This document shows positions 2,402-44,372 of a stretch of 64,000 nucleotides of DNA, piece by piece (within the stretch, counting starts at the first letter, position 1; each line of letters opens with the position of its first letter). The DNA lies in the NCBI RefSeq assembly GCF_000188155.2, contig NZ_KE124774.1, positions 37,501 through 101,500 on the forward strand. The letters run 5' to 3'. A model generated the notes under the pieces. It saw only the letters and a program-made list of their open reading frames with translations, was not told the origin of the DNA and did not search any database. The translations under genes were made by a program, and so were the position numbers. The DNA is from Methylocystis sp. ATCC 49242. Lineage in GTDB: Bacteria > Pseudomonadota > Alphaproteobacteria > Rhizobiales > Beijerinckiaceae.

Positions 2402-3600
2402 GGCTTCGTCGCCCGCCATTGCATCACCGCCATCGCCGGGTCGAGCCCGTGAAAGCGCCCGACCGGACGGGCGCGGGAGATTTGCAGGTGAATGAGTTCG
2501 CCGCCTTTTTCTGCATAGTTTTGTGAGAGGAGCGCCTGCGTTTCGATCGTCACGGCGTTGACGACGATACGGGCGCCGCCGGGCAAGGCGCTCCATGCGC
2601 TTTGCAACATCTGCCCATCAGCGCCGCCGCCGATGAAGATTGCGTCCGGCGGCGCGAGTCCGGCAAGCGCCTGCGGCGCCGCGCCTGTCAAGATCCTGAG
2701 GTCGGGAACGCCGAGCGCGAGCGCATTGAGCGAAATGCGCGCCGCGCGCTCCGCGTCGCGTTCGATTGCAACGGCGCGGTTGGCGGGATCGCGCAGCATC
2801 CATTCGATGGAAATGGAGCCGGAGCCGGCGCCGATGTCCCAAAGCGTCTCGCCCTTGCGTGGCGCAAGCGCAGAGAGTGTAACGGCGCGAATCTCGCGCT
2901 TCGTGAGCTGGCCGTCGTTCTCGAACCAGTCGTCGGGAAGGCCGGGAGCGAGCGGAATGATGCGCGCGCCGGAGTCAGCCTGCACTTCGATCGCGACCGT
3001 ATTGAGCGCCGCGACCTCATTGAAACGGAAATCCTTCGCGCTCGTTTCGCGCATGCGCTCATTGGGTCCGCCCAGATGTTCCAGCACATGTAGCCGCGAG
3101 TCGCCCATGCCGCGCGCGTCGAGATATTCCGCGAGCCGCGCTGGCGTCGTCTCGTCCCAGGATAGCGCGATGATGCGCGCGCGCGGTTGCAGGTAGGGCG
3201 CAATGCGCTCGAAGGCGCGCCCGTGCAGCGAGATGAGCGCGCAATCCTGCTGGCTCCATTTCAGTCGCGCGGCGGCGAGCGAAAAAGCCGATGGACTCGG
3301 AACGCAGAAGATTTCCTCGCTTGTGATATGGCGCGAGAGAAGATCGCCGACGCCATAGAAAAATGGATCGCCGGACGCGAGAACGACTGTCGGCTCGCCG
3401 CGCTGCACGAGAATTTGCGGGATGGCGTCCGACAATGGCGACGGCCATTGCAGGCGCTTTGCGGCGGTATCCCCGATCAGGGCAAGATGGCGCGCTCCGC
3501 CGACGATCAGCGTCGCCTGTTCAAGGAGTGTGCGCGCGGCCGGGGAAAGCGCTGCGAAGCCTTCTTCGCCAACGCCGACAATGGACAGCCAGGGGCGCAT
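2398..3600 (-). CDS. cobL: Precorrin-6Y C5,15-methyltransferase (decarboxylating), CbiE-CbiT fusion
   Basis: Bifunctional enzyme that methylates C5 and C15 and decarboxylates the C12 acetate of precorrin-6Y. About 400 residues: an N-terminal tetrapyrrole methylase (CbiE; LSIVGVGEEG at the start, ASGDPFFYGVG near residue 90) and a C-terminal class I methyltransferase (CbiT; LWDIGAGSGSISIEW and AIERDAERA near residues 255-285). The start at 3600 shares one base with the cobJ stop (TGATG). cobK, which often sits between cobJ and cobL, is absent. Confidence 0.94.
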   Translation of the reverse strand: MRPWLSIVGVGEEGFAALSPAARTLLEQATLIVGGARHLALIGDTAAKRLQWPSPLSDAIPQILVQRGEPTVVLASGDPFFYGVGDLLSRHITSEEIFCVPSPSAFSLAAARLKWSQQDCALISLHGRAFERIAPYLQPRARIIALSWDETTPARLAEYLDARGMGDSRLHVLEHLGGPNERMRETSAKDFRFNEVAALNTVAIEVQADSGARIIPLAPGLPDDWFENDGQLTKREIRAVTLSALAPRKGETLWDIGAGSGSISIEWMLRDPANRAVAIERDAERAARISLNALALGVPDLRILTGAAPQALAGLAPPDAIFIGGGADGQMLQSAWSALPGGARIVVNAVTIETQALLSQNYAEKGGELIHLQISRARPVGRFHGLDPAMAVMQWRATKP

Positions 3601-4352
3601 CAATTGGCCTTCCGCGACGTATAGACCCAATCACGCGCGCCCTCGCGCGCAATTCGCCGCGTGCCGCTCGCGCCGATGAGGACGAGCGTCGACATGTCGA
3701 CCTGCGAGGGATCAACCTTGTCGAGTTGCGTGAGGATCATTTCTTCCCCCTCGCGCCCGACGGATTTCGCGAGGCTCACAAAAGTTTCGCCGGGGAGAAA
3801 GCGCCGCAGCAGCGCAAAGGCGTCAGCGATGCGCGTCGGTCGCGCGCGTGACGCGGGATTGTATAATGCGATGACGAAATCGCCGCGCGCCGCATGCTCC
3901 AGCCGCTTCTCGATCACGTCCCATGGCTTGAGATTGTCCGAGAGCGAGATAGCGCAAAAATCATGTCCGAGCGGCGCGCCGAGCCGCGCGGCCGCGGCCT
4001 GCATCGCTGAAACGCCGGGCATGACTCGAATATCGAGATCGCGCCATTCGCGCGGCCCGTGATCGACCGCCTCGAACACAGCCGCCGCCATGGCGAATAC
4101 GCCCGGATCGCCTCCCGAGACAACCGCAACAATGCGTCCGGCCGATGCGCGCACGAGCGCTTCGCGCGCGCGATCGATCTCAACGCGGTTATCGCTCGAA
4201 AGACGCGTCTGACCTTCACGCTCCGGCACGCGCGCGACATAGGGCGCATAACCGATGACGTCCTGCGCCTCGGCAAGCGCCTGCTGGGCCTCCAGCGTCA
4301 GCCAGCGCGCGTCGGCGGGGCCGAGACCAACGACATAGAGGCGGCCATTCAT
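3600..4352 (-). CDS. cobJ: Precorrin-3B C17-methyltransferase
   Basis: Ring-contracting SAM methyltransferase of the corrin pathway. The 250-residue protein begins MNGRLYVVGLGPADARW, then has VIGYAPYV, VSGGDPGVFAMA (residues ~78-89), VMPGVSAMQAAAARLGAPLG and VIALYNPASRAR, all typical of CobJ/CbiH. The start overlaps the cobI stop by four bases (ATGA) and its stop touches cobL. Confidence 0.95.
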   Translation of the reverse strand: MNGRLYVVGLGPADARWLTLEAQQALAEAQDVIGYAPYVARVPEREGQTRLSSDNRVEIDRAREALVRASAGRIVAVVSGGDPGVFAMAAAVFEAVDHGPREWRDLDIRVMPGVSAMQAAAARLGAPLGHDFCAISLSDNLKPWDVIEKRLEHAARGDFVIALYNPASRARPTRIADAFALLRRFLPGETFVSLAKSVGREGEEMILTQLDKVDPSQVDMSTLVLIGASGTRRIAREGARDWVYTSRKAN

Positions 4353-5113
4353 GGGCGGCGTCCCCTTCCGGGAACGAGCGCCATGGAGAAATAGGGCGCA
4401 ACGTCGTCGCGCTTTTCCGCAAACCGCAAGATCTTTTCGCCAGTCATGGTGCCGCGTTCGACATAGATCGCGCGTTCGGCGACGCCGGCGCGCGCCATGG
4501 CGCGACGCAGCTTGGGAAAGTTGCCGCCGAGCTTCATCACGACAGCCGCATCCGTCGAGGCGAGCCGTTGCGCAAGCGTGTCTTCATCGAGCGTCGCGGG
4601 CATTACGGTAAGAATATCGTCGCCCCATGTCATCGGCTGCCGCGCGGCGGCGAAACAGCCGGACATGCCGGAAACGCCCGCGCAAATATCCACGCGAAAT
4701 CGCTGATCGAGGCGCGTGAACATGTGCATGAAGGAACCGTAGAGCATCGGGTCTCCTTCACACAGCAAGGTCACGTCACGCCCCGATTCCAGCACGGCGC
4801 CGAGACGTTGCGCGCTCTCCTTATAGAAGGACGCGAGCGCGTCGACATATTCGGGCTGCTCGAAAGGAATTTCCGTCGTCACGGGATAAAGGAGCGGCAG
4901 CTCCTCGCAGCCGGGCGAAAAATATCGCTCTGCAATCGTGCGCGCATTGCTCGCGCGTCCGGGCTTGCCGAAATAAGCGATGATCTTCGCTTCTCCAATG
5001 AGACGCGCGGCCTTTACAGTAACGAGTTCGGGATCGCCGGGACCGAGGCCGACGCCGATCAGCGCGCCGAGCGCGACGCCGCTCTCCTGCGATTTCGACG
5101 CAGCCACGTTCAT
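4349..5113 (-). CDS. cobI: Precorrin-2 C20-methyltransferase
   Basis: Adds a methyl group at C20 of precorrin-2. I start it at the ATG at 5113 (254 residues), which overlaps the cobH stop (ATGA); an in-frame extension upstream lies within cobH and has no family features. Motifs: LIGVGLGPGDPELVTVKA, then CEGDPMLYGSFMHM and GVSGMSGCFAAA. The length matches CobI/CbiL. Confidence 0.95.
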   Translation of the reverse strand: MNVAASKSQESGVALGALIGVGLGPGDPELVTVKAARLIGEAKIIAYFGKPGRASNARTIAERYFSPGCEELPLLYPVTTEIPFEQPEYVDALASFYKESAQRLGAVLESGRDVTLLCEGDPMLYGSFMHMFTRLDQRFRVDICAGVSGMSGCFAAARQPMTWGDDILTVMPATLDEDTLAQRLASTDAAVVMKLGGNFPKLRRAMARAGVAERAIYVERGTMTGEKILRFAEKRDDVAPYFSMALVPGRGRRP

Positions 5114-37937: not shown

Positions 37938-37970
37938 GCCGCGGTGTTTCAAAGGGGTGAGGAAGAGTCG

Positions 37971-38912
37971 ATGGCGGCGATGAAACTTCTGGCGGGCAAC
38001 TCGAACCGGGCGCTCGCGGAGGCGATTGCGGCGCATCTCAATATTCCCCTGTGCCGCGCCCAGGTGCGGCGCTTCGCCGATCAGGAAATCTGGGTCGAGA
38101 TTCTCGAGAACGTCCGCGGCCAGGACACTTTCGTGATCCAGTCCACGTCCTTTCCGGCGAACGACCATCTGATGGAACTGCTGATCATGATCGACGCGCT
38201 GCGCCGCGCCTCCGCGCGCCGCATCACGGCGGTCATTCCCTATTTCGGCTACGCCCGGCAGGATCGCAAACAGGGTCCGCGCACGCCGATCTCGGCCAAG
38301 CTCGTCAGCAATCTGATCACCCGCGCCGGCGCCGACCGCGTGCTGACGGTCGATCTTCACGCCGGTCAGGTGCAGGGCTTTTTCGATATCCCGACCGACA
38401 ATCTCTTCGCCGCGCCGGTCATGGTCGCGGACATCAAGTCGCATGCGTTGCTGAAGAACACGATGGTGATTTCGCCCGACGTCGGCGGCGTGGTGCGCGC
38501 CCGCGCGCTCGCCAAGCGCATCGACGCCCCGCTCGCCATCGTCGACAAGCGTCGCGAGCGCGCCGGCGAGTCGGAAGTCATGAACATCATCGGCGACGTG
38601 GCGGGGCACAATTGCATCCTCGTCGACGACATCGTCGATTCGGGCGGCACGCTGTGCAACGCCGCCGAAGCGTTGCTCGCCGCCGGCGCCGAGTCGGTGC
38701 ACGCATACATCACGCATGGCGTGCTTTCCGGCGCGGCGGCGGAGCGCATCGCGGCCTCGAAGCTCAAGGAACTCGTCATCACCGACACGATCCGCGCGAC
38801 AGACGCGATCAACGGCGCGCATAATATTCGCGTCATTCCGATCGGGCCTCTGATCGGCGAGGCCATCGCCCGCACGGCGAAGGAAGAAAGCGTGTCGAGC
38901 CTGTTCGACTGA
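37971..38912 (+). CDS. prs: Ribose-phosphate pyrophosphokinase
   Basis: Makes PRPP from ribose 5-phosphate and ATP. 313 residues: [50 protein letters not shown], the metal-binding [18 protein letters not shown] and the PRPP-loop [18 protein letters not shown]. Start at 37971; a second ATG three codons on is also possible. The stop shares one base with the next start (TGATG). Confidence 0.96.
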
Positions 38913-40423
38913 TGCGCGAGCCCGTTCCGCCCCGCTTCAACCTCGCCCGCTATTGCCTCGCCGACAACGCCCGGCTGCGGCCGGACGCGACCGCCATCAC
39001 GGTGGTCGGCGACGACCATGTGCTGCGCTGGACGCATGCGGAACTGGATCTCAGGGTGCGGCGTCTGGCCGCAGGGCTGCAATCCCTCGGCCTCGCGCCG
39101 GGCGCGCGGGTGATGATCCGCATGGGCAATGAGGCCAACGCGGCGCTGGCCTATTTCGGCGCCATCGCCGCGGGCTATGTGGCGCTGCTCGCCTCTTCGC
39201 AGCTCACCTTCGAGGAAGCCGATTTTCTTCTGCGCGACTGCGGCGCCTCGGTTCTGGCGCTGGGCGCGGCCTTCGAGGAGGAAGCGCATGACGCGCCGGG
39301 CGTCACCGTCCTACGCGGGGCCGATCTCGGGCGCCTCGCCGAAAGCGCGCCGCTTCCCGGCTACGCCGACACCGCTGCGGACGATCCCGCCTATCTCGTC
39401 TACACCTCAGGCACCACGAGCCGGCCCAAGGGCGTGTTGCACGCCCACCGCGCCGCCTGGGGCCGCCGGCCGATGCGAGAGCACTGGACAGGGCTCGGCC
39501 CCGGCGACGTGATGCTCCACGCCGGCGCGATCAACTGGACCTATACGCTCGGCGTCGGCATCGTTGACCCGCTTTCGGCCGGCGGGTCCGCCGTGCTCTA
39601 TAACGGCCATCCCGACCCGGCGGTCTGGCCGCGTCTGATCGAGGAGCATCGCGCAACGGTCTTCGCCGCCGTACCGGGCGTCTATCGCCAGATGCTCAAA
39701 TACGCCGCGCCCGAGAAAGCCGATCTTTCCAGCCTGCGTCATGGACTTTCCGCCGGCGCCGCGCTCGCGCCGAGCCTGCTCGCCGACTGGCGCGCGCGCA
39801 CCGGCAAGGAGATTTATGAAGCCTTCGGCATGAGCGAATGCTCGACTTTCATTTCCAGCGGACCGACCACGCCCGTGCATCCCGGTTCGCCCGGGCGGCC
39901 GCAGCCGGGGCGGGTGGTCGCGGCGCTGCCGCAGGAGGGCGGCGAGACGCCGCTGCCGTCCGGGGAAACCGGCGTGCTCGCCGTGCGGCGCGATGATCCG
40001 GGCCTGATGCTGGGCTACTGGAACCGTCCCGAGGAGGAGCGCGAGGCGTTCCGCGGCGCGTGGTTCGTCTCCGGCGATCTCGTCGAGTTCGACGCCGAAG
40101 GCTACATGCACCATCACGGCCGCGCTGATGAAGTGATGAACGCCGGCGGCTTCCGGGTGTCGCCGGCGGAAGTCGAGAAATGCCTGCTCGCCTTCGACCA
40201 TGTGGCCGAGGCCGCGGCCGCCGAGCGTCCCGGCCGCGACGCCGACGCGACGATCATCAGGGCCTATGTAGTGATGCGCGACGGCGCGCCGCGCGACGAG
40301 GCCGCGATCCTCGCGCATTGCCATGAGCATCTCGCCGCCTACAAGCGCCCGCGCTCCGTGACTTTTCTCGACGCTTTGCCGCGCAACGCCAACGGCAAGT
40401 TGAACCGGAAGCTTCTGCCTTAA
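38912..40423 (+). CDS. Acyl-CoA synthetase (AMP-forming, ANL superfamily)
   Basis: 503 residues with the ATP-binding loop YTSGTTSRPKGVLHAHRA (near residues 163-180), YEAFGMSEC, the Y-G-R/hinge motif SGDLVEFDAEGYMHHHGRADEVMNAGGFRVSP and the catalytic Lys in NANGKLNRKLLP at the end. It activates a carboxylic acid; the acid is not identifiable, though similarity to short-chain (acetyl/propionyl/benzoate-type) ligases is plausible. Translationally coupled to prs. Confidence 0.88.
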   Translation: MREPVPPRFNLARYCLADNARLRPDATAITVVGDDHVLRWTHAELDLRVRRLAAGLQSLGLAPGARVMIRMGNEANAALAYFGAIAAGYVALLASSQLTFEEADFLLRDCGASVLALGAAFEEEAHDAPGVTVLRGADLGRLAESAPLPGYADTAADDPAYLVYTSGTTSRPKGVLHAHRAAWGRRPMREHWTGLGPGDVMLHAGAINWTYTLGVGIVDPLSAGGSAVLYNGHPDPAVWPRLIEEHRATVFAAVPGVYRQMLKYAAPEKADLSSLRHGLSAGAALAPSLLADWRARTGKEIYEAFGMSECSTFISSGPTTPVHPGSPGRPQPGRVVAALPQEGGETPLPSGETGVLAVRRDDPGLMLGYWNRPEEEREAFRGAWFVSGDLVEFDAEGYMHHHGRADEVMNAGGFRVSPAEVEKCLLAFDHVAEAAAAERPGRDADATIIRAYVVMRDGAPRDEAAILAHCHEHLAAYKRPRSVTFLDALPRNANGKLNRKLLP

Positions 40424-40503: not shown

Positions 40504-40977
40504 TTATTCGGCGAGCGTGTCGCCCAAAGCTATTGCGTCGCTCTTCTGACGCGCCGTGATCGTCTCGTTTTTTCGCGACGGCCGGCGTTTCTCGGGCGTT
40601 TTGTCGCGCGGAGCCGGCGGCTCGCCATTCACCGTCGCCTTCATGTTCGGCGAAGCCTTGAAGACGACGACGCGGCGAGCCTCGATCGGCACCGGCGCGC
40701 CGGTGCGCGGGTTGCGCCCCGAGCGCTCTTCTTTTTCGCGCACCAGGAACGATCCAAAATCATGCAGTTTGAGCGATTCGCCTGAGACCAGCGTCGACAC
40801 CATTTCATCGATGACGCAATCGACTATCCGCTTCGCCTCGCGGCGGGAGACGCCCTCGATGCGCCTGTGGATCGCCAGCGCGATATCCTGACGGGTCAGC
40901 GCGCCGCGCGATGTTTCACGGTCGTCGTCCTCCGGGAAATCGGATTGCATTCCATTCAACTTATCGGCGGTCGTCAT
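40504..40977 (-). CDS. ihfA: Integration host factor alpha subunit-like protein, extended
   Basis: DNA-bending protein of the HU/IHF family. The core (about residues 26-118) has LTRQDIALAIHRRI, GSFLVREKEERSGRNPRTGAPVPIEARRVVVFKAS with the beta-arm motif RNPRTG, which matches IHF-alpha. The protein is 157 residues, about 50 longer than usual: a 25-residue acidic N-terminus (FPEDDDRET) and a basic tail of about 40 residues (RDKTPEKRRPSRKNE). An internal ATG (MQSDF) would trim nine residues. HU-type cannot be fully excluded. Confidence 0.85.
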   Translation of the reverse strand: MTTADKLNGMQSDFPEDDDRETSRGALTRQDIALAIHRRIEGVSRREAKRIVDCVIDEMVSTLVSGESLKLHDFGSFLVREKEERSGRNPRTGAPVPIEARRVVVFKASPNMKATVNGEPPAPRDKTPEKRRPSRKNETITARQKSDAIALGDTLAE

Positions 40978-41210: not shown

Positions 41211-41528
41211 ATGACGCGGAGCACGGATGAGGGGGATGTGTCGATCGGAACGGAACGCGGCGCGCCTCCCGATCCCATCGATCAGGTTCGGGAACTCCTG
41301 TTCGGCGCGACCAAGCGCGAAACCGACAACCAGCTGAGCGTCATCGAGACCAGGCTGGAAGAAATGCGGACGGATTTTCTCGCCCGCTTCTCGGCGCTGG
41401 AGGGCCAGCTCGCCGATCTCGCGCGCGAGACCGAGAATAGCCAGGCGGAGGCAATCGAGGCCATCGGCGGCGCGATCGCGCAATTGGGCGCGACGATCCA
41501 GAACATGAGCGCGAGGCGGAAGGGCTGA
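41211..41528 (+). CDS. Small coiled-coil protein of the GTPase/OmpA module
   Basis: 105 residues, cytoplasmic by prediction (no signal or membrane segment). After a disordered N-terminus, residues about 25-100 form a helical, coiled-coil-like stretch (VRELLFGATKRETDNQLSVI, then a charged heptad-rich helix). The segment ELLFG...TRLEEMR resembles the N-terminus of the next protein (KQLLLDETTRRLDV...), suggesting a shared interaction motif. It lies 1 base before the next gene and is surely co-transcribed. Function unknown; an adaptor role is inference. Confidence 0.75.
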   Translation: MTRSTDEGDVSIGTERGAPPDPIDQVRELLFGATKRETDNQLSVIETRLEEMRTDFLARFSALEGQLADLARETENSQAEAIEAIGGAIAQLGATIQNMSARRKG

Positions 41529-41529
41529 A

Positions 41530-43209
41530 ATGTCCGCATCCGGCGGCGGCGAGGCGTTCGAAAGGCTCAAGCAGCTATTGCTCGACGAGACGACTCGCCG
41601 TCTCGACGTGACGACAGAACGCGTCGAGAAGATCGACGCGCGCTTCGGCGACAGCAGAAAATTCGCAGCCGCCACCGGCGACATTCTCGTCGAGGCGCTG
41701 CAGCGCGCGGAAGAGAAGCGGCATCCCGAACTTTCTCGCGCCGTCGCGCCGCTGGTGATTTCGGCCATCCGCTCGGAAATCAAGAACTCCAAGGAGATGC
41801 TGGTCGAGGCGCTCTATCCGATCATGGGACGCCTCGTCACCGCGGCGGTCGCCGGCGCCTTTCGCGAACTTGTCGAAACGCTGAACGAGCGAATCGACGC
41901 GCTGGTCTCCGCCAATTCCTGGCGGCTGCGGATGCGGGCCATGGCCACCGGCAGGACCATGGCGGAAGTTGCGCTCGCCGAAGCCGACGCCGGCCGGCTG
42001 AAGCGCGCGCTCCTGCTCGAACGCGGCAGCGGCCGTGTCCTGGCGAAATGGCCTCTGGCGGAGGAGGGCGACGCGCGGGTCGACGCGAATGTCGATCTCG
42101 AAAGCGGGATGATCGCGGCGATCACGGAATTCGCGACCAACGTCTACGCCGACAAGGGCGGCGAGTTGCGCATGCTCGATCTCGGCGCGAGCCATGTTTT
42201 CTTGCGCGCCTCGCACCGCGTCATCATCGCGGCGGAATTTGGCGGCGATCTGTCGCGCCATCGCGAAAGCCGGCTCGACGAGGCTTTTCTGTCGATCGTC
42301 GAACGTCACGAGAAGGACGAAGTGTCCTGTACGGGCGAGATGGTTGGCCGCCTGCTGAACGACGCGCTGGCGGAGGAGCCTGCGAAGCCGAAAAGCAGGA
42401 AGCCGGTGATGATCTTCGCCGCCGTAGCGGCGGCGCTCGCCATATGGGCCGCATGGGGGCCGGCGACGCGCGCCATTCGCGATTGGCGAATCGGCGCAGC
42501 GGCGCGCGCTGCGATGGCGGCGCATCCAGTGCTTGCGCAATTCCCGCTGCGCATCGAGGTCGAACACGATGCCGGCCGCGTGGTGGTGCGCGGTCTCGCC
42601 GCCAATGAAGCCGAACCGCTGGCAGTTGCGGATGCGCTGGTCGAAGCGGCTTCGCCCTATCGCGTCGAGCGCGAGGTCTCGATCGTGGCGTTGGCGTCGC
42701 AGACGCAGGAGATGCGCGCGGGCGAGACTCGCGCCGCAGCGACCCTGCAGGAGGCGCAGGCGCAGATCGAGACCCTGCGCGCGGAGTTGAAGGAAACCCG
42801 CGCGTCTCTCGACCGATATCTGGCGCAGGACGAAGCGCCACACGTGAAGCTGCGGCGCTTCGTCGAGACTTTCGCCGTGTTCTTCACGGAACTGGACACG
42901 CTTTCAAATCCTGCGGCGACGGCGAAGGGACTGGATGAACTGGCGGGGTTGATGAAGGCGAGCGGCGCAAATCTTCGCGTCGTGGGTTATGCGGACGAGG
43001 TCGGCTCCGCGACCCTGAACCGCGCCGCTTCGCGCAAGCGCGCCGACAAGATCGTCTCCATGCTCGTCGAGCGCGGCGTGCCGCGTCAGCGGCTGGCGCT
43101 CGTTCCGCGGTCGACTCTCGACCCGATCGCGGACACCGAATTCGACGCCATCCGGAGCCGCCGCGTCGCTTTCGAGCTTCCCTTCGCCGGCGAGTTCGAG
43201 GTGCGATGA
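41530..43209 (+). CDS. Bitopic membrane protein: cytoplasmic alpha/beta domain, TM, BON-like, OmpA domain
   Basis: 559 residues. 1-130: helical region (ELSRAVAPLVISAIRSEI; VEALYPIMGRLVTAAVAGAF). About 155-262: an alpha/beta segment (RALLLERGSGRVLAKW; DLESGMIAAITEFATNVY; GELRMLDLGASHVFLRAS; RVIIAAEFGGD) whose order of strands and helices resembles Roadblock/longin domains, which partner small GTPases. 291-311: single membrane helix preceded by KSRK, implying cytoplasmic N-terminus. 320-390: BON-like; 392-432: coiled coil; 445-552: OmpA peptidoglycan-binding fold (GYADEVGSATLNRAASRKRA). Overlaps the GTPase gene by 4 bases. The Roadblock-like call is from pattern only. Confidence 0.85.
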   Translation: MSASGGGEAFERLKQLLLDETTRRLDVTTERVEKIDARFGDSRKFAAATGDILVEALQRAEEKRHPELSRAVAPLVISAIRSEIKNSKEMLVEALYPIMGRLVTAAVAGAFRELVETLNERIDALVSANSWRLRMRAMATGRTMAEVALAEADAGRLKRALLLERGSGRVLAKWPLAEEGDARVDANVDLESGMIAAITEFATNVYADKGGELRMLDLGASHVFLRASHRVIIAAEFGGDLSRHRESRLDEAFLSIVERHEKDEVSCTGEMVGRLLNDALAEEPAKPKSRKPVMIFAAVAAALAIWAAWGPATRAIRDWRIGAAARAAMAAHPVLAQFPLRIEVEHDAGRVVVRGLAANEAEPLAVADALVEAASPYRVEREVSIVALASQTQEMRAGETRAAATLQEAQAQIETLRAELKETRASLDRYLAQDEAPHVKLRRFVETFAVFFTELDTLSNPAATAKGLDELAGLMKASGANLRVVGYADEVGSATLNRAASRKRADKIVSMLVERGVPRQRLALVPRSTLDPIADTEFDAIRSRRVAFELPFAGEFEVR

Positions 43210-43700
43210 TCTCCGCGAAAGTCATGTTGCTCGGCGACATCGGCGTCGGCAAATCCTCCCTCGCCCGCCGCTTCGTCTTCAATCGCTTCGAGAGCGAGTA
43301 CAAGACCACGATCGGCGTCGACGTGCTCACCCACGACGTCGATCTCGGCGCGGAGTGCAATAATGACAAGTTGCGTTTTGTCCTGTGGGACACGGACGGC
43401 GATTTCGGAAGCCGTATTTTCGAGACGGTTTATCTCGCAGGCGCCTCGGCCGCGATCGTCGTCGCCGACGCGACGCGTCCCGCGACTCTGGTGAAGATGT
43501 CGGCGCTCGCGTCGCGTTTCGAGGAGAGTTTTCCCGGGCGGCCGGTGTCGGCGATCGTCAACAAGATAGACCTTGCGCCGGAGCTTCCCGATGTCGGCGA
43601 TTCCTGCATCAAGGCTGTTTACACGAGCGCGAGGACCGGCGAGGGGGTGGAGGAAATGTTTCTCGGCCTCGGCCGCGCAATCTGGCGTCGCGCAATTTAG
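43206..43700 (+). CDS. Ras/Rab-like small GTPase
   Basis: 164 residues, a single GTPase domain. G1 GDIGVGKSS (residues 10-18), switch I with YKTTIGVD (Thr 34/35), G3 WDTDGDF (61-67) where Ras/Rab proteins have WDTAGQE, G4 NKID (119-122), G5 TSA (140-142). No lipidation Cys at the C-terminus. The missing Gln at the catalytic position suggests slow intrinsic hydrolysis or dependence on a partner. The start overlaps the stop of the OmpA-domain gene (ATGA), which implies coupled synthesis and a complex. Confidence 0.9.
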   Translation: MISAKVMLLGDIGVGKSSLARRFVFNRFESEYKTTIGVDVLTHDVDLGAECNNDKLRFVLWDTDGDFGSRIFETVYLAGASAAIVVADATRPATLVKMSALASRFEESFPGRPVSAIVNKIDLAPELPDVGDSCIKAVYTSARTGEGVEEMFLGLGRAIWRRAI

Positions 43701-43709
43701 CGATCGGCT

Positions 43710-44372
43710 TCATCGGTTCGAGAGTGCGCGGATCGCAAGCTCCGTGCGGCTGCGCAGATGGAGTTTGGCCAGGATCGTCGAGACGTGATTTTTCACCGTG
43801 CCTTCGGCAAGGCCCATCTCCCGGGCGATTTCGCGATTGCCCTTGCCTGCGGCGACATGCGCGAGCACGGCCTTTTCGCGGTCGGTGAGCGGCTCTTCGT
43901 CCTCGGCCGACGGCGACGCGGCGCGCTGCGGGCTTTTCACGCGGCGGAACTCCGCGAGGATCTTCGCGGCGACGCTCGGCGAAAGGCGCGGTTCGCCTTT
44001 GGCGACGGCCCGAATTGCCGCAAGGATTTCGCTCTCTTCCGAATCCTTCAATAAATACGCCTGCGCGCCGGCCGTTATGGCGTCATAGACGAGTTCTTCA
44101 TTGTCGAAGGTCGTCAGCATGATCACGCGCGTCCGAGGATTGTCGGAAAGAATCATGCGCGTCGCCGCGACGCCGTCCATACGCGGCATTTTCGCATCCA
44201 TCAGAATGACGTCGGGTGAATAGGCGCGCGCGGCGCTTACCGCCTGTTCGCCATCGGCGGCGGTTGCGACGACGTCGATATCCGCCTCGAGCGCCAGCAG
44301 CGCCGCGAGCGCCTTTCGGATCACGGTCTGATCCTCGGCGATCATGATGCGGATGGGCTGGTGTTCCGTCAC
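43710..44372 (-). CDS. NarL/FixJ-family response regulator
   Basis: 220 residues: receiver domain with acidic pocket AEDQ, phospho-Asp in VILMDAKMPRMDG (residue 59), MLTTFDNEE and LLKDSEESE (Lys near 109), then a LuxR-type HTH at the C-terminus (LTDREKAVLAHVAAGKGNREIAREMGLAEGTVKNHVSTIL). No histidine kinase is adjacent, so it is an orphan here. It converges on the GTPase gene with 9 bases between stops. Confidence 0.93.
   Translation of the reverse strand: MTEHQPIRIMIAEDQTVIRKALAALLALEADIDVVATAADGEQAVSAARAYSPDVILMDAKMPRMDGVAATRMILSDNPRTRVIMLTTFDNEELVYDAITAGAQAYLLKDSEESEILAAIRAVAKGEPRLSPSVAAKILAEFRRVKSPQRAASPSAEDEEPLTDREKAVLAHVAAGKGNREIAREMGLAEGTVKNHVSTILAKLHLRSRTELAIRALSNR

Follow-up and report, generated by a model that had tools for sequence, protein, structure and literature searches.

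A Group 1 Rup GTPase module of Methylocystis sp. ATCC 49242 with a predicted longin-type partner domain in its OmpA-bearing membrane protein

The closest described relatives of the locus analysed here, a three-gene module at positions 41211–43700 of a 64,000-nucleotide stretch of Methylocystis sp. ATCC 49242 (contig NZ_KE124774.1, positions 37,501 to 101,500 of the forward strand; hereafter the window), are the Group 1 systems of the Rup GTPases, a family defined by Wuichet and Sogaard-Andersen in 2014 (PMC4316618). As described there, Group 1 rup genes are accompanied by a coiled-coil gene, by a gene for an unknown domain that is often followed by a transmembrane (TM) helix and an OmpA domain, and by a fourth gene of signalling type, usually for a GGDEF/EAL protein or a histidine kinase, whose product carries an N-terminal invariant Gln that may complete the GTPase active site. 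Where it treats Group 1, that survey calls the fourth gene "highly conserved" without stating it as obligatory, finds the GTPases very similar to Rab/Ran/Ras/Rho, names an alphaproteobacterial member in Mesorhizobium loti, and in its Table 1 gives zero Rup genes coupled to MglB; as of 2014 it reports no Rup member characterised experimentally, one Nostoc gene being known to be transcribed. The same source describes the actinobacterial conservons (CvnA-D; mfp), which likewise group a kinase, a Roadblock-type protein, an extra protein and a small GTPase, but whose GTPase is of MglA type and whose Roadblock protein is separate, with no OmpA anchor mentioned in that account and no response regulator in the conservon (PMC4316618). 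No later work on Group 1 Rup systems was found in the open-access papers searched.

The window module is a Group 1 Rup system, a kind already described in 2014: a coiled-coil gene and a domain–TM–OmpA gene stand beside a GTPase gene whose product lacks the G3 Gln. The preliminary description of this DNA was unaware of the 2014 account, knew of no described function for the architecture and did not connect it with the response regulator immediately downstream. New here are a predicted longin/Roadblock fold for the domain left unknown in 2014, an unlinked kinase gene with a retained regulator, and, for HK_N, the N-terminal domain of Rup-type kinases, a predicted PAS fold and an occurrence almost confined to genomes with the module. 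With a probability of roughly 0.6, the module is a Group 1 Rup system that carries a longin-type GTPase-partner domain in its membrane partner and works as an envelope-to-kinase/regulator switch.

All three genes lie on the forward strand. The first (41211–41528) encodes a cytoplasmic coiled-coil protein of 105 residues with the conserved motif IDQVRELLFG near its N-terminus, as read from the column consensus; the second (41530–43209) encodes a single-pass inner-membrane protein of 559 residues combining a helical stalk, the predicted longin/Roadblock-fold domain, a TM helix and a probably periplasmic OmpA domain; and the third (43206–43700) encodes a Rab/Ras-like small GTPase of Group 1 Rup type with 164 residues and the G3 sequence DTDGD. 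The open reading frames (ORFs) confirm the 1-base gap and the 4-base overlap that had been read at the two junctions, and of 76 junctions between the longin-OmpA and GTPase genes, 44 have an overlap of exactly 4 bases. A NarL/LuxR-type response regulator gene, recognised by Pfam, converges on the module from the reverse strand (43710–44372), 9 bases from the GTPase stop.

The predicted partner domain occupies residues 154–283 of the membrane protein (41989–42378, forward strand). In the AlphaFold2 (AF2) model, strands at 156–164 and 170–174, a helix at 182–205 and strands at 215–217, 221–227 and 231–238 are followed by helices at 243–263 and 269–280, the second of which forms a longin-type C-terminal helix. 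This arrangement fits the beta-beta-alpha-beta-beta-beta-alpha core of longin and Roadblock domains plus the longin-style extra helix, and a hairpin motif, RGSG, recurs in an alignment (A9) that took 48 of 64 regions. Mon1-Ccz1, TRAPP and MglB are among the GTPase partners that have a longin/Roadblock fold. The preliminary description had proposed a cytoplasmic alpha/beta region at 155–262 and a GTPase-partner fold within it; strands and helices are indeed predicted at 156–263, and the AF2 model and its fold matches point to a longin/Roadblock fold for the domain left unassigned in 2014. Within the open-access papers searched, no prior report of a longin assignment for the Rup membrane partner was found.

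Ahead of this domain, residues 6–140 (41545–41949, forward strand) are modelled by AF2 as long helices and carry the signature EI(R/K)NS(R/K)(D/E)M..ALYP, composed of invariant and near-invariant columns across 64 rows; 17 of 80 cytoplasmic regions, near-identical at >88%, had been removed before alignment A3. Behind it lies the single hydrophobic segment above the usual threshold, at residues 293–311 (42406–42462, forward strand), preceded by KPKSRK, so that the N-terminus is likely cytoplasmic and the OmpA domain periplasmic, as judged from this sequence. Hydropathy thereby agrees with the one TM helix noted before, and the same threshold applied to 77 family ORFs gives one segment in 55, two in 20 and none in 2. 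The OmpA domain at residues 462–541 (42913–43152, forward strand) is recovered by Pfam at 1.9e-9 where it had been placed, after the TM helix, and it has both the profile match and the conserved Asp and Arg expected of a peptidoglycan-binding domain: of 78 ungapped rows, 74 keep Asp489 and 77 keep Arg504, with 5 more rows gapped. These two residues are presumably the ones that contact peptidoglycan. The BON-like label once given to the region after the TM helix is not established, because Pfam BON scores 14.7 bits (E 0.039) against a cut-off of 27.

The GTPase matches the Pfam families Ras (1.1e-20) and Roc (1e-20). A search of PDB sequences with its profile gave 715 matches at E <=1e-10, the best 60 of the 715 all being Rabs by name, where Ypt and Sec4 proteins are counted as Rabs. 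Its length falls inside the 150–240-residue range, and its G3 motif, WDTDG, contains an Asp that is invariant in 30 of 30 aligned sequences, a non-MglA feature. Among the 75 GTPases of the window and the scanned loci described below, one of them truncated, DTDGD is found in 42 of the 74 that can be scored and the Gln equivalent to Ras61 in none; this Gln is likewise absent from all 17 further GTPases, 3 of which are probable duplicates. An MglA-type assignment was rejected on the G3 Asp and on the lack of any Robl_LC7 match in the window genome at E up to 10. The module resembles MglA-MglB, whose MglB is a Roadblock GTPase-activating protein (GAP), in that a bacterial small GTPase is encoded with a partner of Roadblock/longin fold, predicted in the present case; it differs in keeping the G3 Asp, in matching Rabs best, and in having a membrane- and wall-anchored partner with a longin-type C-terminal helix. 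A Rab-like GTPase paired with a predicted longin-fold partner also recalls eukaryotic Rabs and their longin guanine nucleotide exchange factors (Mon1-Ccz1, TRAPP, Fuzzy-Inturned), whereas here the longin domains have no sequence-level match, the wall anchor sits on the partner, and the window GTPase has no cysteine at its C-terminus to which a lipid anchor could be attached, so that membrane location must come from a partner.

A species-genome collection was scanned with the membrane-protein alignment, and 80 loci were kept of 91 relatives, two of them (L100 and L101) from one metagenome-assembled genome. Of the 80 loci, 71 contain members of all three families and 70 have them in the same order, which argues against chance linkage; at L040 the three genes are present and the order rule failed owing to an over-long ORF start. 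A GTPase match is absent from six loci (L053, L066, L068, L086, L105 and L110, each <9 kb as fetched) and a coiled-coil match from five (L096, L104, L105, L109 and L110); 79 of 84 sources gave a match to the coiled-coil family. An additional 18 loci from close and distant members of Pseudomonadota include 17 with all three genes, or 14 of 15 without L176, L177 and L180, whose contigs equal those of L057, L036 and L042 in length and which are probably repeats of these loci. The conserved linkage anticipated for the three genes accordingly holds across Pseudomonadota. The cytoplasmic region of the membrane protein was found in 49 of 398 sampled phylum genomes and in 8 of 289 sampled class genomes, two samples that overlap. 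At L106, two longin-OmpA genes (225–2879 and 3435–5105, forward strand) flank a coiled-coil gene, forming a duplicated module, and the Rhodoblastus coiled-coil protein (L047:6283–6975, forward strand) shows by eye short tandem repeats of LDQRQAQ type. Homology between the coiled-coil protein and the N-termini of longin-OmpA proteins was considered and rejected: the profile matched 5 domains in only 4 of 79 coiled-coil proteins, and BLAST gave nothing significant.

In a clustering of the neighbouring genes, most loci have a histidine kinase gene, which immediately follows the GTPase gene or forms a nearby pair, HisKA_3 kinase with NarL-type regulator; kinase domain types come from Pfam on seven kinases, and the regulator cluster is drawn from 30 sources. 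An HK_N kinase lies in the fetched flanks of 60 of the 80 loci, 9 of the 60 kinase domains having been removed before alignment A6; no HK_N was recognised in the clustered kinase ORFs close by at L069 and L072. At thirteen other loci (L163–L175) the next gene encodes a class III cyclase in 8, a GGDEF-EAL protein in 3 and a receiver-bearing HisKA kinase in 1, with none seen in 1, as typed by Pfam on 7 of the 12 proteins. The class III adenylate/guanylate cyclase after the GTPase at L168–L175, identified by Pfam in 4 and by eye in the other 4, is reminiscent, by analogy, of Ras-controlled adenylate cyclase. A profile comparison relates the N-termini of the cyclase type to HK_N (probability 92.4; E 5e-7, calculated for one comparison), and the HK_N profile itself gave no match to them at E 0.01; between the GGDEF-EAL N-terminus and the kinase PAS domain no homology was detected by hhalign (probabilities 0.5 and 2.7, from 3 sequences only). 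A Gln is kept at the N-terminus of the fourth protein in 9 of 9 rows of alignment A7 and 3 of 3 of A8, the choice of column being a guess. At three loci a protein of 363–383 residues is encoded between the GTPase and the regulator–kinase pair (L037:9248–10396, L040:4108–5196 and L099:9214–10329, all reverse strand); the three look alike by eye, and the L037 protein, the sole one scanned, has no Pfam match.

Several observations weigh against the switch with a longin-type partner. The evidence for a longin is a predicted structure with a predicted template-modelling score (pTM) of 0.56, for which Foldseek returned only one match below E 0.001; the model also has a short helix at 144–153 in a Roadblock-like place. 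A Fuz_longin_1 match (0.003) appears in one of the domain's 64 members, Robl_LC7 is absent among the 25 of 60 families listed for those members, and the domain profile matched no longin among PDB sequences. The link to the kinase is also looser in one direction than in the other. HK_N genomes hold the longin-OmpA region in 4 of 4 cases among 289 class genomes and in 10 of 11 among 99 family genomes, the exception being G703, in searches that scored candidates up to a limited number in each genome and with Fisher tests that count related genomes as independent. Conversely, of the genomes with the region, 4 of 8 in the class and 3 of 13 in the family give no HK_N match, so the kinase is not obligatory, and among 13 further genomes without adjacent HK_N it is found elsewhere or on another contig in 4 and not at all in 9. 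Finally, the kinase lineage of the window genome appears to have Glu in place of the invariant Gln reported in 2014, at a column that was guessed; if that column is right, the idea of a Gln completing the active site would not fit.

The absences of HK_N also bear on an alternative in which the longin-OmpA and coiled-coil proteins form a membrane–wall tether under GTPase control, serving polarity or division, with the two-component proteins as incidental neighbours. Three family genomes with the longin-OmpA gene and without HK_N (G070, 100% complete; G696, 94%; G732, 86%) agree with it, as do the OmpA anchor and the long helical stalk, and the MglA/MglB pair of GTPase and Roadblock partner is described as making cell polarity oscillate in Myxococcus (PMC10933270). 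The fourth gene, however, is a signalling enzyme across lineages, be it an HK_N kinase, a cyclase or a GGDEF-EAL protein, and HK_N genomes almost always hold the module even where the two are unlinked; a tether is unlikely. The wall-anchored trans-envelope GTPase switch of the preliminary description is supported in part, as regards the predicted partner fold, the gene linkage and the conserved OmpA residues, and its suggested part in polarity or division finds no support, the conserved neighbours being signalling outputs.

A second alternative concerns the fold itself: the longin-like domain might be a mere dimerisation or PAS-like sensor fold, with the GTPase addressing the kinase directly rather than the membrane protein. 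Longins are placed within a wider PAS-like fold (PMC3521125), which speaks for it. HK_N, for which Pfam gave no family in the window genome's kinase and most others of the seven scanned, is predicted from its model to adopt a PAS fold. As a control, however, the same folding and search applied to this kinase domain gave PAS-type proteins, with no longins among the best 50 matches listed per search, which indicates that the longin match reflects more than a shared superfold; the recurrent 4-base overlap moreover ties the GTPase gene to the longin-OmpA gene. A sensor fold of this kind seems less likely still than a tether.

In the window genome no HK_N kinase adjoins the module as the fourth signalling gene of the Group 1 neighbourhood; the response regulator does adjoin it. 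Simple loss of the fourth gene was rejected, since one near-full-length HisKA_3 kinase match was found at C6:2849341–2850417, standing alone between opposite-strand genes 2.77 Mb from the module on the contig. The regulator is the best match of its own genome to the L063 regulator (56% versus 34% for the next) and, by sequence comparison, is the ortholog of the regulator paired with Rup-type kinases elsewhere. Separation of this kind recurs: module and kinase lie 0.95 Mb apart in the congener G725, in four Rhodoblastus genomes kinase and regulator form a pair at a distance from the module, and the genomes of L032–L034 have the HK_N kinase away from the module with no NarL-type regulator within 10–11 kb around it. 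The least likely alternative is that the adjacent regulator and the distant kinase have nothing to do with the module or with one another. The kinase is only 40% identical to the linked query kinase and far away (1.55 Mb by the other route if the contig is circular), but its match extends over the linked kinase, the module-restricted N-terminal domain included; within its genome the regulator matches a linked one far better than any other protein does, and Rhodoblastus keeps the orthologous pair together.

Under the envelope-to-kinase/regulator switch, the OmpA domain would hold the membrane protein on peptidoglycan, and the cytoplasmic longin domain would dock the Rab-like GTPase with the coiled-coil protein as scaffold, acting as exchange factor, GAP or docking platform. 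This docking would shift when the envelope changes, and with it the GTP/GDP state of the GTPase, which would then act on the PAS domain of its dedicated histidine kinase; the kinase would phosphorylate the NarL-type regulator encoded beside the GTPase. In the window genome the kinase gene would have parted from the module, with the regulator left in place, and the output in this lineage would be transcriptional. We infer the physical contacts, the nucleotide control, the envelope signal and the direction of signalling from computed gene order, folds, conservation, co-occurrence and regulator orthology, for which a modular envelope-to-cytoplasm switch of wall-anchored longin protein, Rab-like GTPase and PAS-bearing output enzyme is the most economical account.

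Upstream, an HU/IHF-like DNA-binding protein is encoded divergently from the module (40504–40977, reverse strand); Pfam Bac_DNA_binding spans residues 27–117 of its 157, and a C-terminal tail of ~40 residues follows. Farther out on the forward strand lie an ORF that we take to be ribose-phosphate diphosphokinase-like (37944–38912) and, its start overlapping that stop, a presumably CoA-ligase-like ORF (38912–40423).

A broader proposition, which we advance tentatively and hold as somewhat less than an even chance, is that the module contains a true bacterial Rab–longin pair, whose genes adjoin across Pseudomonadota, whose longin-topology partner is built into a wall-anchored protein, and which drives interchangeable outputs through PAS domains. 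If so, Rab–longin recognition would not be an archaeal or eukaryotic invention, the Rup GTPases, for which no MglB-type partner was reported, would have had one hidden in the OmpA protein, and a switch acting via a PAS domain would drive a kinase, a cyclase and perhaps a cyclic di-guanosine monophosphate (c-di-GMP) enzyme, as a bacterial counterpart of Ras effectors. The predicted longin/Roadblock domain is a candidate regulator for Group 1 Rup GTPases that makes the system testable, with the kinase and regulator as a concrete, measurable output, and it bears on the origin of Rab–longin pairing and would change how the Rup family should be read.
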